Below the pieces are notes generated by a model. It made no database searches. It was not told where the DNA came from and worked only from the letters and a program-made list of their open reading frames with translations. From a virus, in the IMG/VR virus record IMGVR_UViG_3300018039_000006, positions 1-64,000 of that record: a stretch of DNA of 64,000 nucleotides. The stretch is one strand, 5' to 3'. Below are positions 14,400 through 62,700 of this stretch, in pieces. Made by a program: the position numbers and the translations under genes. Within the stretch, counting starts at the first letter, position 1, and each line of letters opens with the position of its first letter.

Positions 14400-14404
14400 A
14401 TTTG

Positions 14405-14487
14405 TACCCCTGGTGGGAATCGAACCCACAAGCCCAACGGGCCACGGATTTTGAGTCCGCTGCGTTTGCCAATTTCGCCACAGGGGC
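14405..14487 (-). tRNA. tRNA-Leu (anticodon CAA)
   Basis: An 83-base class II tRNA. Acceptor stem GCCCCTG pairs with CAGGGGT (one G-U), discriminator A; CCA is not encoded. The anticodon stem GCGGA/TCCGT encloses the loop CTCAAAA, giving anticodon CAA (reads UUG). A long variable arm (GGCCCGTTGGGCTT) and the T arm GTGGGTTCGATTCCCAC are intact. It lies 6 bases after the sigma factor gene and should be cut from the same transcript. Phage tRNAs usually supply codons the phage uses more than its host. Confidence 0.95.
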
Positions 14488-14493
14488 AAACCC

Positions 14494-15420
14494 TCAAACT
14501 TCCTCAGAAGCCTCCGTAAACGCCCAAGCAACACCAGACGAAGGATGCCTCAACCTGGCAATCGCCTTAGCCTCAAGCTGCCGAACACGCTCCCTCGTCA
14601 AACCCATCATATCACCAATAGCCTGCAACGTCATAGCCTCAGGACTATCACCCAAACCGTGGTGAAGCATCAGCACCTTATACTCACGCTCAGGCAGCAC
14701 TGACAACGCCTTCAAGATATCAGTGGCGAAACTAGCCCTAATCCCCTCCTCGTCAACAGGCGTCTGATCGTAATCCACCAACGTGTCCGCATGAGTTACC
14801 GAACTATCCTCCGAAAGAGGATTATCCAAAGATTCCAGCCTGCTGTTTTCCATATGGTGCCAAATGTCATCCAAGTGGTCAAGATCCCAATCCAAATGGT
14901 CCGCAATGTCCTCTCGGCTAAAGCCATGCTGCCTGGTGCTGAACTCATCAACCACCGCCGCCAACTTCCGCACATCAGCTTCAACATGCATGGGAAGCCG
15001 TATAGCCCGCCCAAAGTTAGCAATAGCCCGCTGACAAGCTTGGCGGCACCACCATGTCGCATACGTGGAGAACTTGAAGCCCTTCTCGGGATCAAACTTA
15101 TCTACCGCACGCATTAAACCAATCGTGGCCTCTTGAATAAGATCTTCGTACTCTAGACGGCTTTGGGAGCGAGCGTACTTTGCTGCCGTGTCCATCGCCA
15201 ACCGAAGATTGTGCGTAACAAAGGTGTCTTTGGCCCGCTTCCCCTCCTTAATGTCGGCATTCAACTTCCGGCGCTCAAGATAAGTCAACTGGATGCCCTC
15301 AATATGGGAATGATTAAGTTTCTTGTCGGCAGCTAGTCCTGCTCGTACCGCACGCCCCAGAACGACTTCTTCATCTCGGCTGAGAATCCGGTGCTTGGAA
15401 CTATTAACGTACCCTGTCAC
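14494..15420 (-). CDS. Phage-encoded sigma-70-family RNA polymerase sigma factor, 308 aa
   Basis: GTG start with AAAGGAG 5 bases upstream. Region 1.2 (residues ~14-60), region 2 (~64-140, with YEDLIQEATIGLMRAVDKFD and FSTYATWWCRQACQRAIAN), region 3 (~141-215) and region 4 (~235-292, with LPEREYKVLMLHHGLG and the helix LTRERVRQLEAKAIARLRHP) are all present. It is therefore a full group 1/2-type sigma, not an ECF or a T4 gp55-like factor. It should bind host core polymerase and redirect it. Residue Q127 matches E. coli Q437, but Gln130 replaces the conserved Thr440 that helps read promoter position -12. Own promoter at 15492-15520. The tRNA-Leu gene follows. Confidence 0.95.
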   Translation of the reverse strand: MTGYVNSSKHRILSRDEEVVLGRAVRAGLAADKKLNHSHIEGIQLTYLERRKLNADIKEGKRAKDTFVTHNLRLAMDTAAKYARSQSRLEYEDLIQEATIGLMRAVDKFDPEKGFKFSTYATWWCRQACQRAIANFGRAIRLPMHVEADVRKLAAVVDEFSTRQHGFSREDIADHLDWDLDHLDDIWHHMENSRLESLDNPLSEDSSVTHADTLVDYDQTPVDEEGIRASFATDILKALSVLPEREYKVLMLHHGLGDSPEAMTLQAIGDMMGLTRERVRQLEAKAIARLRHPSSGVAWAFTEASEEV

Positions 15421-15491: not shown

Positions 15492-15520
15492 AGTATACTA
15501 CACTTCTGGACAAATTGCAA
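15492..15520 (-). promoter_or_regulatory. Sigma-70 promoter (TTGCAA-17-TATACT) for the sigma factor gene
   Basis: -35 TTGCAA at 15515-15520, -10 TATACT at 15492-15497, 17-bp spacer, about 70 bases before the GTG start. Same -10 as the promoters at 14371 and 19323. The 173-base gap 15421-15593 holds this promoter and a leader with no ORF. Confidence 0.75.
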
Positions 15521-38029: not shown

Positions 38030-38032
38030 ACT

Positions 38033-38089
38033 TCCTCACAAAAACTAAGGCCAGGAACATCTGTAGTTATTCTACAGAAATTCCTGGCC
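38033..38089 (-). promoter_or_regulatory. Hairpin with embedded late-type -10 box before the tape measure gene
   Basis: GGCCAGGAA (38049-38057 plus strand) pairs with TTCCTGGCC (38081-38089), and CTGTAG pairs with CTACAG inside it, a two-part stem of 15 bp. On the minus strand it is followed by TTAGTTTTTG, so it could terminate or attenuate. The minus-strand loop side reads TTCTGTAGAATAACT, with TAGAAT at 38069-38074: a likely promoter sits within the hairpin itself. Confidence 0.6.
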
Positions 38090-38094
38090 CCAGA

Positions 38095-38289
38095 TCAGTA
38101 GCCACCACTAACATTACGGCGTTTTCTGTCCTGATCCGCACGATCCTTAGCTAAAGCTTTTGCAACCGCAATACGGATCAACCACTCATGGTAATCACAA
38201 TCCAAAATTTGCAAAGGATCAGTAGAAAACGCCTCGGCTAGCCGAGCAGCAGAAATGATGCGAACATCACTTGCTAACTCCGCAACTAG
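38095..38289 (-). CDS. gpT-like: Tail assembly chaperone, -1 frameshift extension (64 codons)
   Basis: A 64-codon frame beginning where the gpG-like gene ends, with no ATG, GTG or usable TTG before its conserved part and three TGA codons closing it upstream. It reads LVAELASDVRIISAARLAEA then FSTDPLQILDCDYHEWLIRI and a basic end (KDRADQDRKRRNVSGGY). It is therefore expressed only by a -1 shift near ACG AGG GGC TAG (base 38289 read twice, GGC re-pairing on GGG), giving a 240-residue fusion. Position between tube and tape measure is the standard place for gpG/gpGT-type frameshifting. Confidence 0.82.
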   Translation of the reverse strand, partial: LVAELASDVRIISAARLAEAFSTDPLQILDCDYHEWLIRIAVAKALAKDRADQDRKRRNVSGGY

Positions 38290-39451: not shown

Positions 39452-41002
39452 TTAGATAACAGGGGCCGACAAATTACTCTTAGTAATCGTAATATTGATA
39501 AGGTCCGCCACACCAGACACACGCACACCAACATCAGCCTTAACAAGGCCGGTGGCAAGCTGGCTAGTCGGGTTATTAGTGCTGTTGACCGTAACATTGT
39601 AGCCAGGATCAAGCAACACACCATCATCATCGTAGGCTTCAAAAAGACCACCCGCAACCCGAATGGGCTCAAGGAACGCCTTAATCGCACCACGAATTCG
39701 TCCGAAAAGATTTCCTCGTGCGTCAACCGTTTCAAACAGGTACTGTTCCATTCGGTCCGCAACCCCAACCGTAATGTAGTTAAGGGTGTCTCGCTGAGTG
39801 ATGTACCGCCAGTTCGTTTCATCATTTGACACAGAGCGGGCACCATACACCCGAATAGAAGTGCCAACCTTACGCAAAGCATTAACCCTGGCGTTGTCCA
39901 TAATATCACCCGTTGCCGCCGTCACATCCTGAGCCAACGCAGTGATCGTCTTAGCCGAAGAAATCTGACCGGCACCCGCACGCCAAGGTCCAGTGGCTTC
40001 CTGAACCGCCCGTGCCCTCGCAGCAGCCGCATATGAAGACGGGGCGATAGTCAAAGTGGAACCGATCAGGGCCGAAGTGCCAGTAGCCAACTCGGAAGAG
40101 TTAGGAACGGGAACCTTTACGTAAGGCCAGTAGAACGCCATATAGTGCGCACTCGAATCACTATAATAGGCTGCCGCAGCCGAACGAGCAGTAGCAGCTG
40201 AGTCGCCCGAGCTGAAATCACAAATCGCAATACGATTATTCGCCACAGCATGATCACGCAGAGCAGCCCAAACAGCAGTCACACCATTCTCAGGAGCCAA
40301 AACGGCACCACTCTTCAAATTTGGGCTAAACGCCCCATCCCCATACCGGGAAACTGCCCCCGCAGAGGTGCCCACCAAATCCTCGGCAATCGTAGTATCA
40401 GTAGGAGCAGGAGCTACACCTGTAGAAAGCGCAGTCGCCGCCAGCGAATCAGGGTTGTTAGAAGAAGTAACATCATCAGAAGCCTCAATCAAATGATTAA
40501 CAGACGAAGAATTAATCACATTAATAGCATCACTCACATCAACCAAATCCCGAGTCGACAAAAGAAGCTCACCATCAAGACGAATCAAAATCCTAAACGA
40601 ACCAGCAGCAATATTGCTATCATCACTATTGTTCTGCACCTGAACAGTCAAATTAGCCGACCACGGACCCGGAGTCTTAGCCTCCACAATCATAGTCGCA
40701 GACGATGCGCTGTCATTCAAAGCAAGCGAACCAACCGTTGCTGAAGCCGCCGTACCCGCATGCGCCCTACGCACATACAAACGAGAACCACCCTCATCAA
40801 AAAAAGTCTTCGCATGCATATACAGCGAATTAGCCTGATAGTTACCATAATACGTGGTGTAGTCCTGAAAAGACCTAAGCAAAAGCGGCTCATCCACCGG
40901 CCCTCGCTCTGTTGCACCAATCATGAACGCCTGACCTGATACGATGTCCGTAGTGCCGACAGGACCAGTGCGTACTGCAGTGGTGACATTAATTCCCGGC
41001 AT
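39452..41002 (-). CDS. Contractile tail sheath protein, 516 aa
   Basis: Clear sheath family: N-terminal MPGINVTTAVRTGPVGTTDI, FMIGATERGPVDEPLLLRSF, YYGNYQANSLYMHAKTFFDE then GGSRLYVRRAH. Central FYWPYVKVPVPN and the C-terminal conserved region with VNALRKVGTSIRVYGARSVS, YITQRDTLNYITVGVADRME and FEPIRVAGGLFEAYDDDG-type sequence. The presence of this gene fixes the phage as a myovirus. ATG with TTGGAGG 8 bases upstream. Own promoter-like box CATAAT at 41084-41089 and a 5' leader with two stem-loops, as expected of a highly expressed gene. Confidence 0.95.
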   Translation of the reverse strand: MPGINVTTAVRTGPVGTTDIVSGQAFMIGATERGPVDEPLLLRSFQDYTTYYGNYQANSLYMHAKTFFDEGGSRLYVRRAHAGTAASATVGSLALNDSASSATMIVEAKTPGPWSANLTVQVQNNSDDSNIAAGSFRILIRLDGELLLSTRDLVDVSDAINVINSSSVNHLIEASDDVTSSNNPDSLAATALSTGVAPAPTDTTIAEDLVGTSAGAVSRYGDGAFSPNLKSGAVLAPENGVTAVWAALRDHAVANNRIAICDFSSGDSAATARSAAAAYYSDSSAHYMAFYWPYVKVPVPNSSELATGTSALIGSTLTIAPSSYAAAARARAVQEATGPWRAGAGQISSAKTITALAQDVTAATGDIMDNARVNALRKVGTSIRVYGARSVSNDETNWRYITQRDTLNYITVGVADRMEQYLFETVDARGNLFGRIRGAIKAFLEPIRVAGGLFEAYDDDGVLLDPGYNVTVNSTNNPTSQLATGLVKADVGVRVSGVADLINITITKSNLSAPVI

Positions 41003-41031
41003 TTTTAGCCTCCAATTTTCGTTGTCGATAT

Positions 41032-41089
41032 CAATACGTATTGACTTGCCCTGAGGGCCAGACGAAAGTCTGCTCTGTCAAGTATTATG
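41032..41089 (-). promoter_or_regulatory. Sheath promoter region: CATAAT box, 5' leader hairpins and 12-bp palindrome
   Basis: Minus strand ACATAATACTTGACAG gives a -10-like box CATAAT at 41084-41089. Transcripts starting ~7 bases downstream would begin near a CAGAC-TTTC-GTCTG stem-loop (41059-41072) and a GCCC/GGGC stem (41048-41058), likely mRNA stabilisers. A perfect palindrome CAATACGTATTG lies at 41032-41043 and could be an operator. The same CATAATAnTTGAC sequence precedes the capsid gene. Confidence 0.5.
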
Positions 41090-41122
41090 TTACCATGCAA
41101 CGACGGAATATGGATGGAACTA

Positions 41123-41929: not shown

Positions 41930-44900
41930 TCAACGCCCAAGCAGGTTTGCGTGTTGCTTACGAATACCCTCTAACAGCTTTTCCAAATTACGTCGCATAA
42001 GAAGATCAATAGGATCATCAGTGCCCAGACGTTCCTTAGCAGCGGCAATACGGCGCTCCAAACTTACACCCCTATTTTCAAGCCACTGAATTTTCAAGTC
42101 CTGATTCAATTTCTTTAACGTCTCCTCTATTTCCCTACGACTCTCAGACTCATCAAACTGGTTAAGAAGCTGCTTCCACGCATTTAACGCAGACTGCACC
42201 TCGGAACTATCAGCACCTCTAAGTCGAACTATCTCCTCTAGCATATCACGTTCTTCGTCAGGAATCAAGCTCATCCACCGGTCCTGCTCCTGCAACACCT
42301 CCAAAGAAGGCCGACCACTACGGTAGCCAGGAACTTGCGTATTATACTGCCCATCCAAAAACACAGTCTCCACATCAGCAATACCACTACCACCAGGCAA
42401 AAGAGCCTCATGATAACCCGAATCCCGGCCCACCTTAGAATCAGGCAACCGCCAAGACCCCGCATAACCCTCACCAAGCGCCTCATCCCGACCCAAAATC
42501 ATCATCTCCATAAACCGGTCATGCGAAGTCACATCAGCAGAATTAGGGGCATTCCGATACGTGTCATCAAACACCATCCGCAACAACTCCTCATCAGAAG
42601 CATTCTCCATACCAGCAGGAACACCACCAATATTCAAAGAGTCACCGATAACAAACGTGGCATTCCTATTCGTGTCACGCTTAAACTCCACCATAGCTGT
42701 GCCGTAATCTTCCGCCGCACCACTAACTGCCTGCATGTACAATGGGTCGGAGCGCACATCATACAGAGCAAACTCTTCTGGAGTCAACTCAGCCTGACGC
42801 TGAGCAAGAATATCGGCAGCAGCCCTACGGCGGCGGGGACCGTAAGAAACCAGCCCAGAAACCGGACGTTCATCATCTGGGGTATCAACAGGAATCCCTA
42901 TGGAAGTTTCGTATGCTCTACGCATCGTCGGTGGGCTAGTGGCACCAACGTCGTCTGCTCGTGTTCTCCCAGTTGGGCGACTAAACTCCAACTCGTGCGT
43001 AGTCTTAATTCGTCCATCCTCAGCGACAAGACCAATAGTCTGTGGGCTGGCACGCCAGGCAACAACGGTGTCTTCATCTTCAACATTTCTGCGTAAGAAA
43101 TCTACAATATCTTTCTTCTGCTGCTCTGGGGAAGTGTTTTTCAAATAGTCGAGAATAGTTTGTGCTTCCCGGCGGTCAGCGTCAGACATTTCAACTTCTC
43201 CACCTGCGGTGCGGCGGCGGCCGGTGCGAAGCTGCTCCTCTAAGACACTAGTCTTTTCGCTAGCAAACGTAGACAGTAACTCTTCCGGCGCTTTATCTGA
43301 AGGGGGTTGGAAGTAAGCTCCGCCGCTGTCCCCCACTCTTTGCGTGACATCTCCACCCTTGCCGGTCCCATACTCCCCCCAAAGATTATCGAGACCCTCT
43401 TGAATATCAGAACGCCTACTTGCCCTATCAGAGTCAGATAAAGAATCAATATTCGACGTGGACCAATAGGAACGGTCAGGTCCCATAAACATAGGCCGCT
43501 CCGAATTGCGCCACTCCTCACTCCGCTTCGCCTGCTCATCCAAGGCTGTCTGGCTTTCTTTAAAAATATCTCTATACCTGTCGGCCTCTTCTAGTGCCTC
43601 AGCCTCAGTGAGTGGGCGGCCCCCACTTCTACGTTGCGCCCCTTCACGGGCAGCCACAGACCGTGTGTTCATAAAAACAGTAGGAGGATTATCAGGATCG
43701 TAACGGCGCTCTTCATCAAAAAACTTTTGCAGAGACTGAGAGAACTGCTCTCTCGCCTCTTCTATCTCTCTAATTTTCTCCCGCCTTGCCGCTTCGTCAA
43801 GATCGTAAACAAACTGACCACGGCCATCGGGCCGTTCCACTCGTTCCCGATACCGGTCATCCATTTCTCTAACGCTCGCCACAAAATTATCACCTATCGC
43901 TTCAGCCACCCGCAACTGACCTATAAGTTCAGGTGACGCCTCAGGCTCATCAGAACTAGACCCGTACAATCTGTCCTGGCGCTGAGAAGCACGCTTAGCG
44001 GCATCGGCATCGAACTTTCTAATACCTTCAGAAAGGGCACGCAGCGCCCTATCGCTCTCTTCCAAAAACTCCGGTGACGGCACAATGTCTCCATCATCGG
44101 CCAGCATGTTGTCTGAAGCATCGTAAAAGTTTCCGTCTTCCCCCAAATAAAAACCCCGATGCTGAGGGTGCTCTTGGAACAGTCCCACCCTACTGAGACG
44201 GGTCTCGGCACCCCACTCTGACCTATCTCTCCCAGCCAAAATATTATGGGCGACTACGTCTGCAGCCTCAGGGGACATATCAGCAAAATTTTCAGGGACA
44301 GCAACCTCAGAGTGTGGAGAAATACGCAAACCGCTAGGGAGCCCGCCGAACACAATATTACAGCTACTACTCCCTGCTCTATCTTTTAGCTCAATGCCCC
44401 TAAACGCCGATGACTCGTTTATGGGACTACCGCAAGACCTAGTTAAAACACGAGCCTTCTCTAACCATGCAATGTCGGCCGTACGTAAATACCCTAGAAT
44501 ATTATCATCTTCATCAGTAACTGCTGACCAGCCCTCACCTTCAGGTACATCCGTATGCACATGTACGTACCCTAGCCCCCCCTCCCCAACGGGAAATGTG
44601 TTTGGGGGGTGTTCTTTTAGCATGGCAATTACAACCTCCACGCCAGTGTGTTCGACCCCGTTTCGATCAACATACTTCTCATCAGGGTTAAACATTATGA
44701 GCGTCTCATCGAGGAGGCCCACGACGGCAGGATCATCCTCCAGTAGCTGCTTGAGACCCGGCGACAATCCCATCGCTTCATAGTCAACTTGGCGGTCCTT
44801 CCCGAGGGGGTAGTTGATATCCGAGCCTCTTCGGCGGTCACGCAACTTGGCTAGTACTCTTATGTCGTCTTCAGTTAAAACACTGAGCAGCCTTTGGAAA

Positions 44901-47857
44901 CGAACATCCTCATCCGTCAGAGGCTCACCTATTACACCCCTTGTCGTAAGCTCTGCCCTACGCCACAAAATATCTTTGCTTTGCAGATCGCCCTTAGGGC
45001 CGTGGGATGACCTAGTTCTAAGTCTAGGAAACCGCCTAACTAAATCAGATGGAGCAGTAAGGTAAGTGTTAGTTCGTACAGCATTATGAGGGTCTGACCT
45101 AATCGGATAATCAAAACCACCCTCGACCATCACAACTTCAGATCTACGAGTTCGGATGTACTCCCAAATAGCTGCCTGCAAAACTTCAGGAGAAACGTTA
45201 TGCTTCTCCGCAGTCTGCTCTAGCACCCGTTCTAGGGTATAAGACCATCCCCGATCACTGGACAACTTTTCACCCTCTAGACCCTCTATCCGTACATCGG
45301 AGCCGCCTCTAATCATGTTCTTAAAGCCAGCCCTGCCCGTGCCGCTCCCCTCCGCCCGCAGAGCAGGGGCAGTGCCACGCATAGCCCAGTTATCGTCTTT
45401 TTTCACAAAGTCAATGTACGCCTCGCCTTCTACAAACTCCGCACCTTTCTCCCTCGGTCCCGCAGTAGGCACCCACCTCCACCCACCATCAATCTTTTCG
45501 AAATCTCCACCATACTTAGCCTTGTAAGCATTTTGCCAATCTATGTTATCAGGATCAAACGGAATCTTGACATCTGACCCCTCCGGCGCAATATTTAATC
45601 GGTCTTTTCCGCTATCCTTGTGAAAAATGAAAGTAAGCACCCGATTTGGATCAATCATCCCGACCAGTACATGCGTATCCACAGCACCCCGCCGCTTAAC
45701 CTCGTCACTAAACAACGACCAAAAAAACGCATCAGTTTTAGGGCCAGACAACTCGTCTATAGTTTTATGGCCATAAAAAATTTCCAACGCCCCAATAATA
45801 TTGCCCGACCCGCCACCGGCCCGAATCGACCCGGCACCGGAGCTGCTAGTCAAATGCAAGTTTATCAACGCCTCCAAAGTAGGTATGTCCACCGCTTCTT
45901 CTTCGCCTTCGTTGCTCCAGGCGCTAGGCTGAACCACTAGTCTCACACGCTGCTCGTCCGTTAAAACATCTAGATGCTTCCTCAAGCTCTCAAAAGAGAA
46001 ACCTTTCGGAAGGGTTTCCAAGGGACGGTCCTTGCTGTGAGGGGCACCATCAATCTCTTCGAAAACTCGACTTACCTCGTTTCGTCTTTTTATCAACAAC
46101 TTCGGGGCACCATCTCCATCCCGAGTTAATTCGATTCTAACATCTTCACTTACCTCGTTTAGTTTTCCTATCAACTCATCCAACATGGCGTTGGCTTCAG
46201 CGAGTCCCTCTGGGTTATCCTTATACGCCTTCAATAAAAACTCGTGAATCGCATCAACTCTCTGCTGAAGTGTAGAGTTTGTACCCAAGCCGGGCAACCC
46301 CCTGCCATCATTTGCAAGAGTGTGAGCCATAAGACGATCAACACTAACTTCAAAGGGTTTGTCCCTACTCAAAAGATCAGCCAGCGCATTAGCTCTGCGC
46401 ATATTGTTCTCCCAGTCATCCCTGGCTGACATCACCGCTATCATGCTCGCAAACTTCTTCACCCCCGCCCAGCGGCCCTCCTCTTCAGATGTCCTCCTGG
46501 TCTCCCGCACCATATGTCTAAGCACTGACACCCTATACCGCAACGACATGCGGGCGTGGTTGTAGTAATTTTGGATCTCTTCAGATTTCAGTAGGTTTGT
46601 AAACTCCTCATTTTCAAAAAGCTCATCAATTTGGCTAGCCGCCATCTCCTCAAAAAGGTCCCAGGTCATATCTTCGCCAAATATATCCTTAAGCTTTTTT
46701 AGATTCCTTTCGTCCTGCTGCCACTCCCGAAGTATCTCCAGGGCAACCTTGTCGTCGCTCATGTCTCCAATAAGCTTATCCGTTGCCTCCCCCTGCCTGT
46801 TAGCGTGCGCCCTTTTATACTTATCAATCAAATGTCGCAGAGCATGCCCACGGTCCCCCGCCTGTTCAGCTGCATCCTGGGCATCCATCGCAGCTACATC
46901 GGCGGGAAGCCGAACATCGCCCGTATTATCATCAGGGAGTAGGGCAACAGCCTCAGCTAGCGCAGCCCCCCTGCCGAGCCGCACCCCGGGGCCACAGCCC
47001 GAGCCCGACTTCTCCCCCTCCTCCTGCTTCACACGCAAACCAGCAGGCATACCACTAGCAACATTTATACCAGCACCCGGAAGCGGACACACCGCAGCGG
47101 CCTCCGATGGCGTCCGAAACGCATACACAACATCTTCAATACGGCGATCAAAAACGGGCACACCCTCATCATCAGTTGGATAATCCCCCAAATTATCATC
47201 AAAAACAGTAACATAAAAAGGTTCCTCAGGAAGATCATCGGCCATCTCAGAAAAATCAGCATCAACCCGATCCCCCGGCGGAACCCCATCCAAAAACTGC
47301 CTCAAATTCGTAGAAACATCCTCACCATACAAATCCTCAATAAACCCAAGCCGCCTATCAATCTCATCAGGATCATCCGTGGGCTCCCACAACATCATCT
47401 CCAACCCGGCATCAGAAATACCAGGATACCTCTTACGTAACTCAGCCCGCCGATCAATCGGCGGATCAACAACCTCCGCAGCCATCGGCACATAAGGAGA
47501 CTTCGGGCTAGCAATAGTCCCAAGCCTATCACCCACCGTACCAAACCTATCCCGGGCCGACAAATCATCCCGATCCCACGACGGCCTCGGAGCATTATCA
47601 ACACGCTCCAACACACCGTTATCGCCACGCCTCGCCAACACAAAATTCTGCCTAAACACGTCAACGCCAGGCGGGTGATCGGCACCATCCACAACCTCAG
47701 CCAACCTACCAGCAGCATCCACCATCGCAAAAACAAACCCCTTAGGGCGCTCCCACAACGTCTGCTCCTGAATGATGCCATCAAGGTCAGCATCAGGCGG
47801 ATTAGGTTTATAAGGTTCTGAACGAAGACCGCCCCAGCGGCCAGGAATAGCTGCCAT
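41930..47857 (-). CDS. Giant multidomain protein with possible ADP-ribosyltransferase-like C-terminus, 1975 aa
   Basis: Hydrophilic, Asp/Glu/Arg-rich, with many disordered linkers, set between the neck and sheath genes: the profile of a phage 'polyvalent' or ejected internal virion protein. No membrane segment. Segments that look folded: ~380-560 helical, ~640-900 mixed (VLTFIFHKDSG, EFVEGEAYIDFVKKDDNWAM), ~1050-1200 (ARVLTRSCGSPINESSAFRG). Toward the C-terminus there are three motifs in the order expected of an Arg-Ser-Glu ADP-ribosyltransferase: VVAWRASP (codons near 43045), a beta/STS-like region (VSGLVSYGP; ATFVIGDSLN) and YHEALLPGGSGIADVETVFL (42361-42420), the last like the E-[x]-LLP.GS...V strand of MuF-linked transferases. 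The enzyme assignment is tentative. Confidence 0.6.
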   Translation of the reverse strand: MAAIPGRWGGLRSEPYKPNPPDADLDGIIQEQTLWERPKGFVFAMVDAAGRLAEVVDGADHPPGVDVFRQNFVLARRGDNGVLERVDNAPRPSWDRDDLSARDRFGTVGDRLGTIASPKSPYVPMAAEVVDPPIDRRAELRKRYPGISDAGLEMMLWEPTDDPDEIDRRLGFIEDLYGEDVSTNLRQFLDGVPPGDRVDADFSEMADDLPEEPFYVTVFDDNLGDYPTDDEGVPVFDRRIEDVVYAFRTPSEAAAVCPLPGAGINVASGMPAGLRVKQEEGEKSGSGCGPGVRLGRGAALAEAVALLPDDNTGDVRLPADVAAMDAQDAAEQAGDRGHALRHLIDKYKRAHANRQGEATDKLIGDMSDDKVALEILREWQQDERNLKKLKDIFGEDMTWDLFEEMAASQIDELFENEEFTNLLKSEEIQNYYNHARMSLRYRVSVLRHMVRETRRTSEEEGRWAGVKKFASMIAVMSARDDWENNMRRANALADLLSRDKPFEVSVDRLMAHTLANDGRGLPGLGTNSTLQQRVDAIHEFLLKAYKDNPEGLAEANAMLDELIGKLNEVSEDVRIELTRDGDGAPKLLIKRRNEVSRVFEEIDGAPHSKDRPLETLPKGFSFESLRKHLDVLTDEQRVRLVVQPSAWSNEGEEEAVDIPTLEALINLHLTSSSGAGSIRAGGGSGNIIGALEIFYGHKTIDELSGPKTDAFFWSLFSDEVKRRGAVDTHVLVGMIDPNRVLTFIFHKDSGKDRLNIAPEGSDVKIPFDPDNIDWQNAYKAKYGGDFEKIDGGWRWVPTAGPREKGAEFVEGEAYIDFVKKDDNWAMRGTAPALRAEGSGTGRAGFKNMIRGGSDVRIEGLEGEKLSSDRGWSYTLERVLEQTAEKHNVSPEVLQAAIWEYIRTRRSEVVMVEGGFDYPIRSDPHNAVRTNTYLTAPSDLVRRFPRLRTRSSHGPKGDLQSKDILWRRAELTTRGVIGEPLTDEDVRFQRLLSVLTEDDIRVLAKLRDRRRGSDINYPLGKDRQVDYEAMGLSPGLKQLLEDDPAVVGLLDETLIMFNPDEKYVDRNGVEHTGVEVVIAMLKEHPPNTFPVGEGGLGYVHVHTDVPEGEGWSAVTDEDDNILGYLRTADIAWLEKARVLTRSCGSPINESSAFRGIELKDRAGSSSCNIVFGGLPSGLRISPHSEVAVPENFADMSPEAADVVAHNILAGRDRSEWGAETRLSRVGLFQEHPQHRGFYLGEDGNFYDASDNMLADDGDIVPSPEFLEESDRALRALSEGIRKFDADAAKRASQRQDRLYGSSSDEPEASPELIGQLRVAEAIGDNFVASVREMDDRYRERVERPDGRGQFVYDLDEAARREKIREIEEAREQFSQSLQKFFDEERRYDPDNPPTVFMNTRSVAAREGAQRRSGGRPLTEAEALEEADRYRDIFKESQTALDEQAKRSEEWRNSERPMFMGPDRSYWSTSNIDSLSDSDRASRRSDIQEGLDNLWGEYGTGKGGDVTQRVGDSGGAYFQPPSDKAPEELLSTFASEKTSVLEEQLRTGRRRTAGGEVEMSDADRREAQTILDYLKNTSPEQQKKDIVDFLRRNVEDEDTVVAWRASPQTIGLVAEDGRIKTTHELEFSRPTGRTRADDVGATSPPTMRRAYETSIGIPVDTPDDERPVSGLVSYGPRRRRAAADILAQRQAELTPEEFALYDVRSDPLYMQAVSGAAEDYGTAMVEFKRDTNRNATFVIGDSLNIGGVPAGMENASDEELLRMVFDDTYRNAPNSADVTSHDRFMEMMILGRDEALGEGYAGSWRLPDSKVGRDSGYHEALLPGGSGIADVETVFLDGQYNTQVPGYRSGRPSLEVLQEQDRWMSLIPDEERDMLEEIVRLRGADSSEVQSALNAWKQLLNQFDESESRREIEETLKKLNQDLKIQWLENRGVSLERRIAAAKERLGTDDPIDLLMRRNLEKLLEGIRKQHANLLGR

Positions 47858-50677: not shown

Positions 50678-50982
50678 AGCGACCCTCGCTTCACAGCGCT
50701 CAACGTCGCTGAAAACATCATCGAAGCAACCAGAGTTGCCGACGAAATAATAAAAGCGTCGCTGTAACCAATACCCGGACTGGCTACGGTAATCGTCGGC
50801 CACGCCCTAAGAACCGCCGCATTCACCAGCATAGCGGCAAACGCCAATATGCCAGACACAAGCGAGATCGCAAAAATCGCAGAAGCTGTTGTGACAATCA
50901 AGTTTCCTTGCTTGTTTTCCTGCGAAAGCTTATTCAATACTTTTTCCCATTCTGCTTCAGCGGCGGGATTAACACTACTCAT
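50674..50982 (-). CDS. Two-transmembrane protein, possible holin, 102 aa
   Basis: A charged N-terminal helix (PAAEAEWEKVLNKLSQENKQ), then two hydrophobic spans (LIVTTASAIFAISLVSGILA with FAAMLV, and GIGYSDAFIISSATLVASMM) and a short basic tail (VKRGSL). Topology and size suit a class II holin, though it lies 30 kb from the endolysin and next to a MazG-like gene. Start overlaps the preceding stop (ATGA). It could also be an unrelated membrane protein. Confidence 0.6.
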   Translation of the reverse strand: MSSVNPAAEAEWEKVLNKLSQENKQGNLIVTTASAIFAISLVSGILAFAAMLVNAAVLRAWPTITVASPGIGYSDAFIISSATLVASMMFSATLSAVKRGSL

Positions 50983-51365
50983 AACTTATTCTCCTTTACT
51001 ATTTGGTACACACGTTGACGAGATAGATTGTACCGTTTGGCAATTTGTTCCAACGCCATACCCTCATGCTCTCGCAACCACACAATGTCGCTATTCCGCT
51101 GAATCACCACTTCCTTTGACTTCGGGCCAGGACGCACAGGCCCCCAACTCCAAGATGAAATATTTTCCAGCAAAGCAACACGCTCAGCCGACAACAAACC
51201 CTGCTTGTATCGTGTCCGCATGTAGCTAACCCAATTGCCCAAATTCAAAGGAACACCAGAATCCAAAAATTCAACGTGCCCACTTGGGACTTTAGCATCA
51301 CCATACCTGCTCTTGTACTGCAGCAAAGCTGTATAATACTGATTCCAACGTGCGGTGTGGTTCAT
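50979..51365 (-). CDS. Helicase-associated-domain protein with C-terminal helix-turn-helix, 128 aa
   Basis: Residues ~6-75 match the helicase-associated (HA) domain, pattern W...Y..L..Y...YG.A.VP.......G..LG.WV..MR..Y..G.LS.ER...LE.I..W.W, as in GNWVSYMRTRYKQGLLSAER. Residues ~95-128 form a helix-turn-helix (MALEQIAKRYNLSRQRVYQI). It should bind DNA; in other phages and in actinobacteria HA domains are found alone or repeated. It heads the transcript of the MazG-like and TM genes from a consensus promoter and is probably leaderless. Confidence 0.75.
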   Translation of the reverse strand: MNHTARWNQYYTALLQYKSRYGDAKVPSGHVEFLDSGVPLNLGNWVSYMRTRYKQGLLSAERVALLENISSWSWGPVRPGPKSKEVVIQRNSDIVWLREHEGMALEQIAKRYNLSRQRVYQIVKENKL

Positions 51366-51371
51366 ACACGT

Positions 51372-51400
51372 ATCTTAGTCGATATGCGGTAAGATGTCAA
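51372..51400 (-). promoter_or_regulatory. Sigma-70 promoter (TTGACA-17-TAAGAT) giving a leaderless transcript
   Basis: -35 TTGACA at 51395-51400, -10 TAAGAT at 51372-51377, 17-bp spacer. ACGTGT separates the -10 from the ATG at 51365, so the message should begin at the start codon. Confidence 0.75.
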
Positions 51401-51967: not shown

Positions 51968-54835
51968 TCATCTAACGGGACACGCCCCTGTAGCACAAGA
52001 GTCGTCTAGGTCATCGTCCGACATCATCGTTGACCCTGACAACTTCTCCCCCAGAGGAGTCGTAGCCGCCAACATGGCCACATACTCCTCAAGCGTAAGC
52101 TCGCCCATCGGAGCCTGATCAAAACCATGCTCGCTGTGCAAAAGGAACGAAACCGACTTCATCTCAGACCAGTACTCCGCAAGATACGCCTTAATCTCCT
52201 CAAGCTCTTCCTTACGGTAGTACACGGTTACCGAAATCGAGTTATCAGCCCACAACCTTTGCAGCTTACGCACCAAATCCATCTGCTCTACCGCCGACAT
52301 ATTCTCAGCAAGCACAGTACCCTCAGGGAACGCACAAGGGAACTCCACCACCACGGTACGGTCATCCTCAGAACCATCAAAGTTACGCAAAGGCTCAACG
52401 TGGAAACCTTTACTGCGGCAATAGTTAACAAGCACATCCGTGGCAGCCATACGCATCCGCTTCACAAAATACTGAGAGAAACCAGGATGCACCCCAGGAG
52501 TCACACCAGGCAGCAAGCTGAGCGTACCAGACGGCTTAATCGTGGTAAGGCGAATAGACTCAGGCCAACCTCGCTCAGCCGACCAATCAATATCAAACTC
52601 ACGCAACTTCACATACGCCTGATCCAGCCACTCAACCTTATCCAACGCCTGAGCAACCCCGGTAACCCCGAGACCCAGCCGCATGTTCTTAGAAGTGATC
52701 TTATCCGACGCAGGATCAAGATACGACAAAGCTGCTGTTGCCTTCTGAACCTTATAAAGCAGCAGCGTAAGGTCAACCAGTTCCTCCCGAGAATCAATCA
52801 TCGGCAAAAAAATCTCCGACAGATTACAAGACTCACGGTTAGCCAACGGAATCTCCGCACAAGGATTCACACCCACAATACTGTAATCGGGACGAACCTC
52901 ACCCATGCGCCCAAACTTACGTGAAGCCTCAAGATTGAAAAACCCGTAAGGCTCCCCGTTTCCCTCATAGCCTTCCCAAACAAGCTGAGGCATATTCTGC
53001 ATCTGATACTCATTGACAAAAACAGTATTATTCGACATCGCCCGCTCAATTGGAATATTGCCAAGGTCCCACCGCTTCGCCATCAGATACTCTTCATCAT
53101 CCAGACTACCAACAGCAATCTCCGCCGAACGACGAACATTACCAGCGACAACAATTGACCCAATAATATTCATACAGTCAAGAACCTCAACAGAAGTCAT
53201 CGTACGGCCGATAGCCCCATCAAGTACCTTGCAAATCTTCTCAATACCAGAAATAAGAATATCGGGACCAGAAGCAGTGCCACCAAAAGTCTTAATAGGA
53301 ACACCAGCAGGGCGGATCAAATGAGTAGCATAAGTCATCTTACGTGGATTGTCATCATCACCCAAGTAGCACTCAAACACCTTACGAATGACTTCACCCC
53401 ACCCCTCACGGGTATCAGGCACAATGAAATCAGAATCATCAGCATCTACACGATCCACCCACGCAGACCGCACCACACCAAGACGCTCAGGTTTATCACA
53501 CGAGAAACCAACCCCACCGCCCAACATGAGCCTTTCAACTGCCCACGAAAAGTCGGTAGGCTTCTGCACATCCACAAACCAGCAATTCCCGGTTAGTAGA
53601 TTATCGGACAAAGCGAACGTGTGTGTCTCAGGGACAACCGCACAGAAAACAGGCTCAGGAGCACCATACTCCCCAACGGACTCAACCTTCCAATCAGCAA
53701 CGCTGGCACGCCCCACAAAATCTCCACGATGCTTCGACAAAAGGAAAAACTCTGGATCTTCAATATGGAGCGGCAAAGTATAAATGGTGCTCTCCTTGCC
53801 GGTAAGATTGCTGATACGATTTTGTTCGTAAATAGGGCCAGTAGCAACACCAATAATAGTCGCAACGTCCTTGGCGGCACGCAACGAGTTAATATTGGTG
53901 CTATTCAACTGAGCGCCCTTCCCATCACGAGCATACCCGTCAGCAGCAAAATACCCTGCGAGCCAACCGTACAAATAACCACGGAACTCATTGTAATCAG
54001 GGGAAGCTTTATAAGACCGTGGAAGGCCGTAGAAAGTCGCACCGTGCTCACTTTCACTTGACTTGTAATCAAGGAAAAAATGTTCAAGCTCTGCAAGATC
54101 AGCATTAGCAACAAACGCACGAGCGCCCGTGTTATAAACCGTACCGTCACCGTAAACTAGACCAGCACGAACACCATCGTTGCTCATATCAGCAGTATGT
54201 GTGCCTTGCCCTTTTATGCTAACAAGCTTCATTCCCGGTCGCAAAGACTCAGTAAAGAACTCTTCCCGACCGTTCTTACCACGAACAATCCACCGATGCT
54301 CAGCGGTAGCACGAACAGTTTTTACCTGCTTCCCACGACGAAGCACGATTTCAGCAAGCCGCTGCTCACCGAAGCTTCGGATATCAGCATTAACCCACTT
54401 ACCATAATCAGTCATAACCGTAGCATAACCAATAGCAGCTAGGTCATCAATTCGCTTAATGCCCTCCCGAGTAACAACCTCAGTTTCACCCCCAAGGCAA
54501 TTCACCAAACTATCCCCACCCAAACGCTTGTTGTTCGGAGTGCCCAGCTGCCACAGCATACGTCCAGCAACGCTGCCCTTCAAATTGAAAAGATAATCAT
54601 AAAGACGAATAGCCTCATCCTCAGACAGTTGTGCGCCAATGTCTTGGGCCCCGTTAACGACCCGCTGCACAGTCTCATGCCACTCCTCTGTCCGTTCAAT
54701 AACATCGGAGTTATTCAAAAAAATCGGGCGTGCATACGTCCGTTTATAAGTAACGTACCCTAAACCGTTGAATCCCCAAGGTGGCATCTTGTCGGCGTAA
54801 GAGTTGGCATGATCGTCTGAGATGAGAAAAGACAC
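51968..54835 (-). CDS. nrdJ: Adenosylcobalamin-dependent ribonucleoside-triphosphate reductase (class II, NrdJ/RTPR) with intein, 955 aa precursor
   Basis: Converts ribonucleoside triphosphates to dNTPs using coenzyme B12. All signature residues of monomeric class II enzymes are present: the first redox Cys at residue 418 (right after the intein), NPCAEIP with radical Cys659 and its Asn657/Glu661 partners, Cys670 in NRESCNLSE, and the C-terminal swinging pair Cys947/Cys952 (DSCATGACPVR). Residues 113-417 are an intein; the spliced enzyme is about 650 residues, a little shorter than the Lactobacillus protein. N-terminal NNKRLGGDSLVN and GSVAGRMLWQLGTPN match. AGGAGG precedes the ATG; a TAGAAT box lies at 54884. 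A structured stretch and a terminator follow. It supplies dNTPs for phage replication in a B12-containing host. Confidence 0.95.
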   Translation of the reverse strand: MSFLISDDHANSYADKMPPWGFNGLGYVTYKRTYARPIFLNNSDVIERTEEWHETVQRVVNGAQDIGAQLSEDEAIRLYDYLFNLKGSVAGRMLWQLGTPNNKRLGGDSLVNCLGGETEVVTREGIKRIDDLAAIGYATVMTDYGKWVNADIRSFGEQRLAEIVLRRGKQVKTVRATAEHRWIVRGKNGREEFFTESLRPGMKLVSIKGQGTHTADMSNDGVRAGLVYGDGTVYNTGARAFVANADLAELEHFFLDYKSSESEHGATFYGLPRSYKASPDYNEFRGYLYGWLAGYFAADGYARDGKGAQLNSTNINSLRAAKDVATIIGVATGPIYEQNRISNLTGKESTIYTLPLHIEDPEFFLLSKHRGDFVGRASVADWKVESVGEYGAPEPVFCAVVPETHTFALSDNLLTGNCWFVDVQKPTDFSWAVERLMLGGGVGFSCDKPERLGVVRSAWVDRVDADDSDFIVPDTREGWGEVIRKVFECYLGDDDNPRKMTYATHLIRPAGVPIKTFGGTASGPDILISGIEKICKVLDGAIGRTMTSVEVLDCMNIIGSIVVAGNVRRSAEIAVGSLDDEEYLMAKRWDLGNIPIERAMSNNTVFVNEYQMQNMPQLVWEGYEGNGEPYGFFNLEASRKFGRMGEVRPDYSIVGVNPCAEIPLANRESCNLSEIFLPMIDSREELVDLTLLLYKVQKATAALSYLDPASDKITSKNMRLGLGVTGVAQALDKVEWLDQAYVKLREFDIDWSAERGWPESIRLTTIKPSGTLSLLPGVTPGVHPGFSQYFVKRMRMAATDVLVNYCRSKGFHVEPLRNFDGSEDDRTVVVEFPCAFPEGTVLAENMSAVEQMDLVRKLQRLWADNSISVTVYYRKEELEEIKAYLAEYWSEMKSVSFLLHSEHGFDQAPMGELTLEEYVAMLAATTPLGEKLSGSTMMSDDDLDDSCATGACPVR
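53585..54499 (-). other. Intein with LAGLIDADG homing endonuclease inside nrdJ, 305 aa
   Basis: Begins at Cys113 (CLGGETEVVTREGIKRIDDL) and ends at Asn417 before Cys418. Block B TAEHRWIV and block F VPETHTFALSDNLLTGN are typical. Two LAGLIDADG-like motifs, RAGLVYGDGTV and WLAGYFAADGYA, are intact, so it may still be mobile. The penultimate residue, normally His, is Gly (TGN|C). The insertion is directly before the catalytic Cys of the reductase, where homing would target a conserved site. Confidence 0.92.
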
Positions 54836-55776: not shown

Positions 55777-57174
55777 TTATGGTTGTTCACCTAAGGTAAT
55801 TGCAACGAACGACTCGGGGCGCTTCACCGCAAGGGCAAGGCGCTCTTCAGCCAGAACAACAATAGCGTTCCGAGTGAAGAAGTCATCGTAGTTCTCCGAA
55901 ATACGGATCGAAGCCGCCTCACGGTCGTACAGCTGAGCGCCGGTACCGAAGGCACCAACCAGAGCCGTGCCCTGAGCAATCGCAGGGGTGTCGATGACGG
56001 GAACCCGCCACACCCGTGACTCAGCACCACCAGCAACCGACATCGCAAGGAGGTAGGTGCCCTGGCTGTTCTTCGTCAGCTCAATGTCTTCCCAGTCAAT
56101 CGGGTTGACAATCACGCCAGTGGGCTCGTAGTTCGCCAGGTAGGCGAGAGTAAGCGCACGACGAATTGCGTCAGCCTTCGTGTCAGTGGACTCGTTCGCT
56201 GAAGCGGCCGAAGCGTAGCCCGGTGAGAAGTTCGGGTGGGTATAAGCCTGAATGTCGCTGTCGTTGAGGATACCGTCAAGCTGGTCGCCGCTGCCGTCGC
56301 CATTAAGGATCTGCTGATCCTCCATAAGGCGAAGGCCGTACAGAAGCTCATTGTCAATGATCCCACGAAGCTGAGGCTCATCCGACAACACATTACGGTG
56401 AGCAGCTTCCCAGTGAGCAATAGTGCGCACCGGAGCCTGACGGCCAACAAAGGAAAGGCTTGACTGTGGCTTCATGCCAAACTCACTCCCATCACGCTCA
56501 GGTACCATGTAAGCCGAAGCCGCAGACGCAAACCCGGCACGCCATCCGTCACCACCCGGCGTACCAGGAGTGACTGCACGACCGGTACCGTAGGTGCTAA
56601 GCACATAGCCGGTCTGACGGAAGTACTCAACAACCGCAGCATTAGTCGTGCGGGCAGGGAAAAGATCCCGAACCCGGCGGCTACGCTGCGGAAGCTGCAC
56701 AATACCGTCACGCTCAACTCCACCAAACATATCAGGGGCTGCAAAACCGGTCCCACCAGGAGTACCTTGATGAATATCCTTGGTAAGAAGGCTCTTCACC
56801 TCAAAAGGCGAGCGCATGGTGTAACCATTTCGGCCACCCTGCAAATCCTTGAACTCAGGCGAATCCAAAAAGGCACCACCCACAGTCGAAGCCTGCGGAC
56901 GACGATCAGCAGCCGCATCTGCCGCAGCAGCCACGCTCTTCTGATTCGGCTCCGAAGCCCACTTCTGAACTTCCTCAAGCTCACCAAGACCCTCAATGAG
57001 ACCCTTAATTTCCTTGATGTCAACCATATTCTTCTGGAACGCAGCCTTCTTCTCTGCGTCAGCAATAAGGGTAGTCCCCTCAATCTGCATCGAATCAGCA
57101 ATCTGACGCTGCTCTGCCATCTTCTCAGACAAAGCACCCTTCAGCTCATTGAGACGACTCTCATCAAAACTCAT
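55777..57174 (-). CDS. HK97-type major capsid protein, 465 aa
   Basis: N-terminal ~95 residues form a coiled-coil delta domain (ESRLNELKGALSEKMAEQRQ) like the scaffold part removed in HK97. The body follows the HK97 plan: FAAPDMFGGVERDGIVQLPQ, VRDLFPARTTNAAVVEYFRQ, QRVPVRTIAHWEAAHRNVLS-type strand, IDNELLYGLRLMEDQQILNG and GDGSGDQLDGIL, ANYEPTGVIVNPIDWEDIEL, LLAMSVAGGAESRVWRVPVI, and a C-terminal P domain with ISENYDDFFTRNAIVVLAEE. Start at ATG 57174, 7 bases after AGGAGG; an ATG two codons earlier is too close. Strong terminator and own promoter-like box show high expression. Confidence 0.95.
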   Translation of the reverse strand: MSFDESRLNELKGALSEKMAEQRQIADSMQIEGTTLIADAEKKAAFQKNMVDIKEIKGLIEGLGELEEVQKWASEPNQKSVAAAADAAADRRPQASTVGGAFLDSPEFKDLQGGRNGYTMRSPFEVKSLLTKDIHQGTPGGTGFAAPDMFGGVERDGIVQLPQRSRRVRDLFPARTTNAAVVEYFRQTGYVLSTYGTGRAVTPGTPGGDGWRAGFASAASAYMVPERDGSEFGMKPQSSLSFVGRQAPVRTIAHWEAAHRNVLSDEPQLRGIIDNELLYGLRLMEDQQILNGDGSGDQLDGILNDSDIQAYTHPNFSPGYASAASANESTDTKADAIRRALTLAYLANYEPTGVIVNPIDWEDIELTKNSQGTYLLAMSVAGGAESRVWRVPVIDTPAIAQGTALVGAFGTGAQLYDREAASIRISENYDDFFTRNAIVVLAEERLALAVKRPESFVAITLGEQP

Positions 57175-57255
57175 GTTCATTCCTCCTAAGGTTTGAGTTT
57201 AACATGTTTACTGTTTAATGACAGGCGACCCAAAAAGCAGTGACACCAGTCAACT

Positions 57256-57261
57256 ATTATG
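57256..57261 (-). promoter_or_regulatory. Capsid gene -10-like box (CATAAT)
   Basis: Minus strand GCTAGCATAATAGTTGACTG, 82 bases before the ATG. It shares CATAATAnTTGACwG with the sheath promoter. A TTGCC sits about 16 bases upstream as a weak -35. A small TGAC/GTCA stem is at the expected 5' end. The 187-base gap 57175-57361 has no ORF of note. Confidence 0.5.
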
Positions 57262-57361
57262 CTAGCACCAAAGTAAAGGCAACCACGGGAACTTTAACAA
57301 TAATCTCTTACAGCGCCGCAAAAACCAAAAATAACGTATATCACACTACTAGCAAAACCGC

Positions 57362-59734: not shown

Positions 59735-62700
59735 CTATATTAGATCCAAAATATAGTCTAGATTATTAGACTCAAACTGCTCCAACAACCAATCATACCG
59801 CTGCTGGAGCAACTGAGACGCCAATTCCCACTGGTTGTCACGACTCAAATCGTCACCCACATCCGAAACCATATCTTGAATATCATCACCCAAACGTGCG
59901 ATTTCTTCACCAAACGCCATGCGCTCCATCACAGCACTAAGAGCCTCCCGAGCCCCCTCTCGATCACTCTGAATACGCTCCTCCAACGCCGTATGAATAG
60001 AACTCACATAACCCCCAGCTTGAAGCAGCTTCATCTGCTCTGCAGGGTCCCCATCTGCCATAGCCTGCTGCCGCAAAACCCTTCCCATCTCTACCTGGCC
60101 CCCTCGGCCGAATCTGGCACCACCTATCAGACCTGCCTCATTATCCCAAGGCACCAAACGCTGCTCATTTGTTTCAGGATCAACATAAATCCCAAAGTTT
60201 CCCTCGTGCCGGTCTGGGTTCCCCAACAGCATATCCAACAAAGTCATCTGGAACATATCTTCCAAATTTACTGGCCCCACAGCCACCTCAGTACCGTCAG
60301 GCTCAGTTACTATTCCCCCCTCAAAATAGCTGGAATTGCCAGAAGTCGCTCTTATATTGCGCCCAAAACCGTCCGCATCCTGCAACCTTAGATTAGTATT
60401 AGTATCGCCCAAACCACGCCCCTCAGGAACCCAGTTATGAGCCATCTCTATAACCAACCCACGAGTCGTACCCGGATTAGGCACATTCGGGTTATTGTCC
60501 TCACCCATCGGGCCGTCCCAACGAATCTGACCTGCCTGCATACCCATCCGCTCCTGCAACATACGAGCAGTAACCTCAACAGCGCCACCATAATGACCAA
60601 ATGAATACCCATTAGCAAACTTGAACCCATACAGCTGACCAGTCTCAGAGTCTCGGAAGAAAGTCATACCACTAGGTAGATCGGTCAGATCAGCACCAGC
60701 ATTGTTAATCCCCCGCTGAATGCCCGTAATAACTTCATAACGAGGCGTAGCGTTAACAACGTCTGACCGGTCCCAATGACCTGACCCGGGATGATCTGAA
60801 TTATCAAAGATTGCCTGTGCCACGAAAAAGTCAGGAATCTCCATAATGTCGCCACCATCACGCAGCCGCTGAACAGCAGTTGCCTGATCATCAATCCCAT
60901 TGGCACCAACCGCAACAGAAGGCAAGGCACCTGCCGGGTCATTATTTGCATCTAAAGGAACACGATTAGGATTAACACTCCACCGCTCAGCCGTTTTCAG
61001 CCGCTGATTAATTGTTTCTGGCCTAGAAGCTGGATCAGGCTCATCAAACCATCCCCGTGGGAAAAGCTCCTGAACATCGTAAGTACCCGCCTCAAACAGT
61101 GCCCCCGACAAACCACCGTGGTCGTCATAGCCAAGTTGTTGCATTTTGTCCAAAATGTCAGGATCATCAGCTTCTAAAGCAGCTATCTCTTCTGCAGGCA
61201 CCCCATCCTGTCCGGGTCCTCCAATAGCAAAGCTTCTGAACCCTCTACCCTTGAACGCCTGGAACGCAACCGCATTACGCTCCCCATTAGGCCCATCCAG
61301 AGCCACCAAAAAATCGTGGTGAGCTGGAAGCTGGTCCGCACGGCTATCGGGGTCACGATGCACGCTAAGCATCGTATCAATGCGGGCGGCCCTGATATCG
61401 TCCTTGATTAAAGCTTTCGCCTGTAGCATCTCGGCGGTGATCTCCCTGCCATCTCCCTTAGCCAGCTTGTAGCCATTGTACCGCTCAAGCATTAGTTCCA
61501 TTCTCTCGTTAAGCCTAATAATTTGACGGGAATCGCTATTACGGTAACCATGCCGAGCCCACACCGCAACCCCATCTGCCGCTGCAGACACCTTATACTT
61601 AGGAATGCCCAATCCTCCATACCACAAGGCAGCGTTGTCATTAAACTCGTTAGAAGCGCCCCCGCCGCTGAAGTCAACCTTTTGCCCATTGGGCCCATCA
61701 ATGGTTTTTTTGAAACCAAGATAACTATGATAGGCGTGGCTGTTCGCTGAAAGCCTCCCGTCGGCATTGTACTTGAAATTCAGTGTCCTCGCAATACCGC
61801 CATCAAGGTGACTTGGGGAGCCTCGTTCACTAAACTCTGTGCCATCTGGAGCACGCAAAATAAAGTTATTAACCCCCTCAGCATTAATGTACGAAATACG
61901 GCCAGTGTCAGACTCACGCTGGATATAAACATCATTAATTTCAGGCTGGATAATCTTCTGATAAACTACACCATCAATCTCAATCTCGCCCACATTCATT
62001 TCAACGCCATCAGAATACATCGCACGAACTCTAGACTCAGCTTCCCGATCACCCAACAAAGACAGTTCGCTGGCCGTAATGTCCCAAGGCGTATCATCCC
62101 CATACCTGCGCTGGGCCAAAGCCTTAATCTTTTGCCTCCGCTTAGCCCGGCGAGTCTCCGCTGCCTCTTTCCAATCGTACCTGGCAATCTGACCAAGCCT
62201 GCCATCTAAATCAGCATTATTACCTACAGCCCGGCCAACCTGATTGCGGGCTTCACGTCGCCCAATTTCTGCATCAACCTCATCACGAAGACGTTGCATG
62301 CTCAAAACTGCACCAGGGTTCATCCCACGCCGGTTAATAAATTCACTAGACAAAACGTTCCGCAAATTCTCCAACGCCGCATCACTACGATTATGGATTG
62401 GCTGCTGCAACTCAGTCGGCCCAAACCGGTTACGTCTATCGAGAATCTCACTAATTTCCCCAAGCTTATCGGCATATGCCCGAGTATCTTCTTTGTCTGC
62501 CAAAATGCGCCGCTGCATATTAAGCAAATCTCTAGTCGGCATAGCATTTAGGTTGTTCCAGTCGTCCGGGCTCATCCAGCCGTACCCAATATTTTCAGCG
62601 TTGACGGGAAACTCAATATTGCTGCCCATCTGCTCAGCCCCACGACGGCGAAGCTCAAGTTCAAGCTCACCAATTTCTCTATTGCGATTATTCTGCAACC

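Follow-up and report, generated by a model that had tools for sequence, protein, structure and literature searches.

The stretch of DNA analysed here (the window) comprises positions 1 to 64,000 of the 68,278-base viral record IMGVR_UViG_3300018039_000006. It encodes a sigma-70-type factor, and a preliminary description of the sequence had proposed that a glutamine in region 2.4 of this factor, at the position of Escherichia coli Thr440, adapts it to late promoters with C at -12, namely the CATAAT boxes before the major capsid and tail sheath genes. We describe here a conserved two-element signal, a predicted late promoter class, that lies before these two genes, and we consider which factor might read it. 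The features concerned are as follows.

14494-15420 (-): phage sigma-70-type factor of 308 amino acids, with Pfam Sigma70_r2 and Sigma70_r4 matches and PHROG 351
15492-15520 (-): canonical-looking promoter of the sigma gene, TTGCAA-N17-TATACT, seen in the sequence and by eye not conserved in relatives
39452-41002 (-): tail sheath gene (PHROG 23)
41077-41089 (-): CATAATACTTGAC, the CATAAT box with a conserved segment around the likely start site, sheath
41087-41095 (-): extended -10 of the predicted sheath promoter, TGG-TAACAT, from alignment and register test
41116-41121 (-): upstream element of the predicted sheath promoter, AGTTCC, from the upstream alignment
50979-51365 (-): HA-HTH protein of 128 amino acids, with a Helicase-associated (HA) domain and a C-terminal helix-turn-helix (HTH) like sigma region 4 and Mor; candidate reader of AGTTnC
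51372-51400 (-): canonical leaderless promoter of the HA-HTH gene, TTGACA-N17-TAAGAT-N6-ATG
55777-57180 (-): major capsid gene (PHROG 10)
57249-57261 (-): CATAATAGTTGAC, the CATAAT box with a conserved segment around the likely start site, capsid
57259-57267 (-): extended -10 of the predicted capsid promoter, TGC-TAGCAT, with T at -12 and the C of the preliminary description at -9, from alignment and register test
57288-57293 (-): upstream element of the predicted capsid promoter, AGTTCC, at -41 to -36 in the adopted register

Both CATAAT boxes are present as described, at 57261-57256 (-) before the capsid gene and at 41089-41084 (-) before the sheath gene, and they form part of a larger conserved signal. 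The hexamer alone is common: the window holds 50 copies, against 33.6 (standard deviation 6.1) expected, and only 1 of 100 shuffled sequences reached 50. The longer CATAATANTTGAC occurs exactly twice in the window, upstream of the capsid and sheath genes, and recurs with at most one mismatch before these genes in several relatives. The first base of the relatives' CATAAT box is often T and not C, above all before the sheath gene.

The architecture of the signal was determined from the capsid and sheath upstream regions of sigma-bearing records. Twenty-seven upstreams were read (the sheath match L061 lacked its start), and removal of three copies from the window species left 24, comprising 9 capsid and 15 sheath sequences. 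AGTT is invariant across all 24, and a C follows two bases on in 23 of them. Twenty nucleotides (nt) past AGTTnC lies TGnTA, followed by a variable pair and then by A (22/24), T (24/24), A (24/24) and A (22/24). The -10 of this alignment was anchored by a pattern containing TGnTA, so that those columns are built in while the AGTT columns are not. Upstream of the -35 position, AGTTnC provides the sole columns common to the capsid and sheath sets, and the TG of the extended -10 lies 88-102 nt before the start codon.

When 19 contigs were scanned for AGTTnC-N-TGnTAnnAT, we found 24 matches at a spacer of 20 nt, compared with 0-5 at each other spacer from 10 to 31, and 21 of the 24 lie before a capsid or sheath gene. 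Likewise, a weight-matrix scan of 1,160,405 bases placed all 23 sites scoring at least 25 before capsid or sheath genes; the next site scored 18.1, the best reversed control scored 16.9, and no further class member rose above background in these bases. Among the window genes with homologues, the signal is consistent at capsid and sheath only, and the gene for a 1975-amino-acid protein shows one-mismatch matches in 2 of 7 relatives.

More distant relatives were reached by alignment scans that drew on the best 80 of 100 confirmed sheath loci and the best 80 of 141 confirmed capsid loci. These 160 loci yielded 155 usable upstream regions in 22 clusters, including 75 of the 80 sheath loci; the sheath loci dropped were L145 (which shares its contig with the window species), L176 and L186 (no gene start), and L214 and L219 (short upstream). 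Exact AGTTnC-N23-TAnnAT is found in 10 of the 22 clusters at spacer 23, and in 0-2 at other spacers from 8 to 44. A looser pattern, GTTnC-N23-TAnnnT, is found in 7 of the 14 remaining clusters and in at most 3 at any other spacer, in a test for which eight clusters (close kin or full motif) were set aside by choice and the pattern was loosened after the data had been seen. The upstream word begins with T rather than A in clusters 5 and 16, and several groups have no such signal, among them capsid cluster 2 and sheath loci L192, L194 and L197. Six named actinophage isolates with related capsids (Gordonia phages Chidiebere, GMA6, DalanDe and ScarletRaider, Brevibacterium phage Cantare and Streptomyces phage Gilgamesh) have neither AGTTnC-TAnnAT nor GTTnC-TAnnnT at spacers of 15-30 within 300 nt upstream.

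For the register of the -10, upstreams were anchored on AGTTnC alone and nothing was asked of the -10 itself. Exclusion of 36 upstreams without AGTTnC and 9 with several copies reduced the 155 to 110, of which 62 were distinct and 25 representatives remained after an 80% identity filter. We observed T at +29 in 23 of these and A at +30 in 23. The hexamer that begins 3 nt before CATAAT (TAGCAT for capsid, TAACAT for sheath) combines T at -12, A at -11 and T at -7 in 22 of the 25, compared with 8 of 25 for the CATAAT hexamer, a figure that rises to 12 of 25 once C is accepted at -12 as well. Of the three representatives that fail this test, two belong to clusters 2 and 16, where the upstream word is a different one. 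In the better register, most of the closer relatives have TG at -15/-14, the mark of a classical extended -10. Thus, the -10 of the late boxes had originally been placed 3 nt out of register, and the C of CATAAT is very probably not at -12; it falls at -9, where C, T and A all occur.

Canonical promoters of the same 19 contigs were tallied as well. TTGAC[AG]-N17-TAnnnT is matched 176 times at spacer 17, versus 15-58 times at other spacers from 10 to 25. The version with C at -12, TTGAC[AG]-N17-CAnnnT, is not enriched in these contigs: its 10 matches at spacer 17 are fewer than at any other spacer tested (16-38). Given the outcome of the register and enrichment tests, neither the late nor the canonical class shows C at -12.

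We therefore hold with high confidence that the predicted class consists of AGTTnC at -41 to -36 and a TAnnAT -10 at a fixed gap of 23 nt, without a shared -35 in the usual place; its architecture, conservation and register were computed directly. With a -10, no shared canonical -35 and an upstream word at fixed spacing, the class has the layout of an activator-dependent phage late promoter. The class looks like a new variant of the known activator-dependent phage promoters, and among the papers listed in a literature search we recognised no description of it or of the HA-HTH protein, which is not proof of absence from print. What stands of the late promoter class first proposed is a distinct conserved signal at the capsid and sheath genes, unlike the canonical promoters of the regulators; its definition by C at -12, or by reading through the glutamine, is not supported.

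The open reading frame at 14494-15420 (-) belongs to the sigma-70 family, regions 2 and 4 both lying above the Pfam cut-offs (Sigma70_r2, E 2.5e-19, 69.2 bits against 24; Sigma70_r4, E 6.8e-15, 54.8 bits against 24.1). As had been noted from the sequence, its region 2.4 reads WWCRQACQRA (residues 123-132). The RpoD-type word, E. coli WWIRQAITRS, was read in 2 of 7 yardstick sigma genes that we fetched, so that Gln130 aligns with Thr440 without gaps. Relatives with 68-100% identity were recovered at 25 loci of IMG/VR, and both WWCRQACQRAIAN and the WWCRQACQRA of region 2.4 are identical in all 25, a count somewhat biased in that WWCRQACQ was among the six search peptides and three loci are copies of the window gene. 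The nearest relatives in phage records are more distant, all 220 matches having less than 60% identity, and 37 pattern matches to cellular relatives in GTDB contigs included none that was confirmed, which is weak evidence given the narrow peptide patterns used. Like group 1 and 2 sigma-70 factors, the protein has regions 2 and 4 and an RER[VI]RQLE helix, its region 4.2 keeping the SigA-type TRER[VI]RQLEAKA, and actinobacterial SigA/HrdB is nearest among solved structures. It differs from these factors and from reported actinophage sigma-70 factors in being short and in its region 2.4. A predicted structure with a mean predicted local distance difference test score (pLDDT) of 63 was not used. 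A tRNA-Leu(CAA) lies directly downstream of the sigma gene at 14404-14487 (-), and in many relatives tRNA-like sequences, identified by eye, also precede the next gene.

The proposal that this sigma prefers C at -12 through Gln130, with CATAAT as the late -10, starts from a glutamine and boxes that are both real. It also draws on genetics that we could trace: in the passages of PMC2613000, Q437 and T440 of E. coli sigma-70 face promoter position -12, and Q437H and T440I suppress a T-to-C change there. According to a passage of PMC8407463, principal sigmas conserve Thr440 across phyla, so that Gln130 is unusual for a principal sigma, and a passage of PMC8321222 discusses Leu/Ile at 440 in Carsonella in the same sense. 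None of these passages from the three sources names Gln at 440. The window sigma is changed at the same residue position as the T440I mutant but to Gln and not Ile, and it keeps the equivalent of Gln437; it thus carries neither of the known changes that accept C at -12, and no promoters with C at -12 are demonstrable. Besides the register, in which CATAAT falls short even with C allowed, and the unenriched C version of the canonical promoter, homologous promoters differ in the base in question (C, T or A) with no change in region 2.4. Position 440 also varies in other sigmas: among the seven yardsticks, it is Thr in four, Glu in RpoS, Ser in the S-CBS3 phage and Asp in Vibrio phage D506. RpoS uses T at -12. 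In addition, two contigs, G045 and G048, carry the late signal (AGTTGC-N23-TATTTT and AGTTGC-N23-TATTAT, respectively), and sigma region 2 was not found in either. Neither test points to C at -12 in the promoters presumed to be the cognates of this sigma. Thus, we regard a link between Gln130 and C at -12 as very improbable. The phage sigma may act elsewhere, or jointly with the HA-HTH protein.

The HA-HTH gene lies about 5 kb downstream of the capsid gene. Among ten members of this family, searches at E <= 0.1 detected HA in 10, Mor in 10 and Sigma70_r4 in 9. In the window species, the Mor match (PF08765) covers the HTH part only (residues 89-125) at 25.2 bits against a cut-off of 24.9, the N-terminal part being the HA domain. 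Eleven of 12 close records encode the protein. At E <= 0.001 it was also detected in 25 of 37 further contigs, among them all three above 100 kb, with 21 of these matches at E < 1e-25; both G045 (137 kb) and G048 (156 kb) have it alongside the signal. We found no match to it in 50,697 phage records at E <= 0.01, and none of 78 pattern matches in GTDB contigs was confirmed as a cellular relative, narrow peptide patterns again making this weak evidence. A structure model has a pLDDT of 85 and a predicted template modeling score (pTM) of 0.56.

The promoters of the regulators are as they had been described, TTGCAA-N17-TATACT for the sigma gene and TTGACA-N17-TAAGAT for the HA-HTH gene. The latter was likewise computed directly, and TTGAC[AG]-N17-TAnnAT-N6-ATG precedes the HA-HTH gene in 10 of 10 relatives. 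Given that the gene stands behind a canonical leaderless promoter, host polymerase could make the HA-HTH protein before the late genes are needed. Such a layout of expression is what would be expected of a late-gene activator. In phages generally, capsid and sheath genes are the most strongly expressed.

The explanation that we favor, and to which we give somewhat better than an even chance as a whole, is a two-element late promoter class read with a phage-made factor. The capsid and sheath genes would be driven by AGTTnC at about -41 to -36 and a TAnnAT -10 with T at -12, set 23 nt apart, the -10 being extended to TGnTAnnAT in close relatives. The signals before the two genes are predicted to be promoters and to be used late. 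RNA polymerase would be directed to them by a phage-made DNA-binding factor that reads AGTTnC, and it is probable that some such factor does so. The HA-HTH protein, itself predicted to be made from a canonical host-type leaderless promoter, is the best single candidate, although its identification as the reader is tentative and rather unlikely to be correct. More doubtful again is an extension to a large group of uncultured actinobacterial phages, in which HA-HTH would take over the role of the -35 at AGTTnC with the 23-nt gap and host polymerase would read the capsid and sheath genes without the phage sigma.

A close parallel is phage Mu with its middle promoter Pm and activator Mor (and late activator C), where a small phage-encoded HTH protein binds just upstream and assists the host sigma70 polymerase, and the C terminus of the HA-HTH protein gives Mor matches in every member. 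In contrast to Mor and Pm, what is conserved here is a single short word at -41 to -36 that shows no evident dyad, and HA-HTH carries an HA domain. A dyad-symmetric site upstream of the -35, as for Mor and C, would matter only if HA-HTH is the reader, and no second half-site occurs in the 10 columns before AGTTnC. T4 late promoters consist of a TATAAATA -10 alone, used with gp55, gp33 and gp45. They share with the present class late genes that lack a canonical -35, and they differ from it in having the -10 alone, where here an upstream word is conserved at fixed spacing.

Several observations weigh against the favored explanation. The capsid promoter of the relative G021 scores 16.6, within the range of chance hits, and the exact word is missing from the 11 capsid upstreams of cluster 2. 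Within the spacer between AGTTnC and the -10 (window 57249-57293, -), CTTTAC is invariant in 9 of 9 capsid promoters and missing from the sheath set, a feature for which the explanation does not account. Foldseek returned only weak HTH matches for the HA-HTH protein (best E 0.098). The 25 far contigs show no association between HA-HTH and the signal: 6 of the 14 that have GTTnC-N23-TAnnnT contain a strong HA-HTH match, as do 3 of the 11 that lack it (G046, G050 and G059). Many of the contigs in this tally are fragments, and for G061, G057 and G060 the class was assigned from their cluster or an earlier result. Because of this count, we lowered our estimate for HA-HTH as the reader from somewhat below even to clearly below it, and that for the whole explanation slightly. 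WhiB-family genes co-occur with the signal about as well as HA-HTH does.

Late genes are usually suspected to depend on a phage sigma, and the window sigma might read the class by a route other than Gln130, its region 4, or the sigma with a partner, recognising AGTTnC at the longer 23-nt spacing. Consistent with this, 10 of 10 sigma-bearing records with a capsid gene found show the class there, though these records were fetched through the sigma itself. The SigA-type region 4.2, however, would predict reading of TTGACA at 17 nt, and none of 37 further contigs with a capsid or sheath gene, three far contigs of 118-156 kb among them, gave a match to sigma region 2 (PF04542). This count is weak, since 12 of the 37 are close-kin fragments whose sigma gene would lie about 25-40 kb away and some contigs lack the signal; its main weight comes from G045 and G048. 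We consider this route unlikely, at about one chance in a handful. Another possible reader is a phage WhiB-like protein in complex with the principal sigma of the host: actinobacterial WhiB proteins act beside the -35 region, and the position of the word immediately upstream of it would suit one. Among close contigs 8 of 13 carry WhiB-family genes, and among far ones 9 of 14, including some (G053 and G056) in which HA-HTH was not found. Their number and place vary between contigs, however, and their role as reader is a prediction. Moreover, whiB is suggested in passages of PMC10202952 as a key, general actinophage indicator, yet the signal is absent before the capsid gene in all six named isolates, whose WhiB content was not tested. 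We consider a WhiB-like reader less likely than a sigma acting by another route. The conserved stretch could instead function within the late mRNA, in processing or in translation, as both downstream leaders are conserved too and the start site is a prediction. Against this, the words are laid out as a -10 with T at -12, A at -11 and T at -7, with TG at -15/-14 in close relatives and a fixed upstream element, and the sequence between AGTTnC and the -10 differs widely between capsid and sheath promoters. An mRNA element thus seems very improbable.

The WhiB genes (8 of 13 records), the Gordonia and Brevibacterium phages that carry the nearest capsids among named isolates, and the suggested value of whiB as an indicator point to an actinobacterial host. 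Passages of PMC10202952 also report two cultivated Nanopelagicales phages with whiB and a sigma-70 factor.

Some further features of the window deserve mention. The sheath leader (41020-41070, -) holds conserved inverted repeats, GCCCTCAGGGC and CAATACGTATTG (CAATACGGTATTG in relatives), and the capsid leader (57190-57245, -) a conserved GGTCGCCTGTCATT; distant capsid leaders share a sequence like GGGTGCTTACCTGGGCC. Neither leader matched an Rfam family at its threshold. A downstream TTGAC was considered as the -35 of a further promoter and rejected, as no -10 was seen by eye 16-18 nt on in the two window leaders. Upstream of the ribonucleotide reductase gene (51968-54835, -; 955 amino acids, best PHROG stretch 417-955), at 54916-54883 (-), TTGACn-N22-TA[GC]AAT has a fixed 22-nt spacer in 9 of 10 relatives listed, and the tenth, G021, has TTAACA at the same spacing. 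For TTGAC[AG]-TAnnnT, 22 is the second most frequent spacing after 17 (58 matches in the 19 contigs), and this element may represent a further promoter class. Two copies of TATAATAGGGTATG, around 51773 and 55703 (-), stand shortly after terminator-like hairpins and before apparently leaderless genes. Before the tape measure gene (38030-38130, -) lies a conserved hairpin, GGCCAGGAAT...GTTCCTGGCC, or CCGGGAATT...ATTCCCGG in relatives. This hairpin has TAGAAT at its centre, is followed by T-rich sequence and is likely a terminator. The window also encodes the protein of 1975 amino acids mentioned above (41930-47857, -; no PHROG match) and one of 1407 amino acids (59735-63958, -; marginal PHROG match).

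A point-mutation story that the data do not support gives way to a promoter grammar that is concrete, open to testing and repeated across many uncultured phages. Should AGTTnC indeed be read by a phage factor, for instance the HA-HTH protein, this would add a late activator of a new type, and the sequence would then allow late transcription units to be called in phages that have never been grown.
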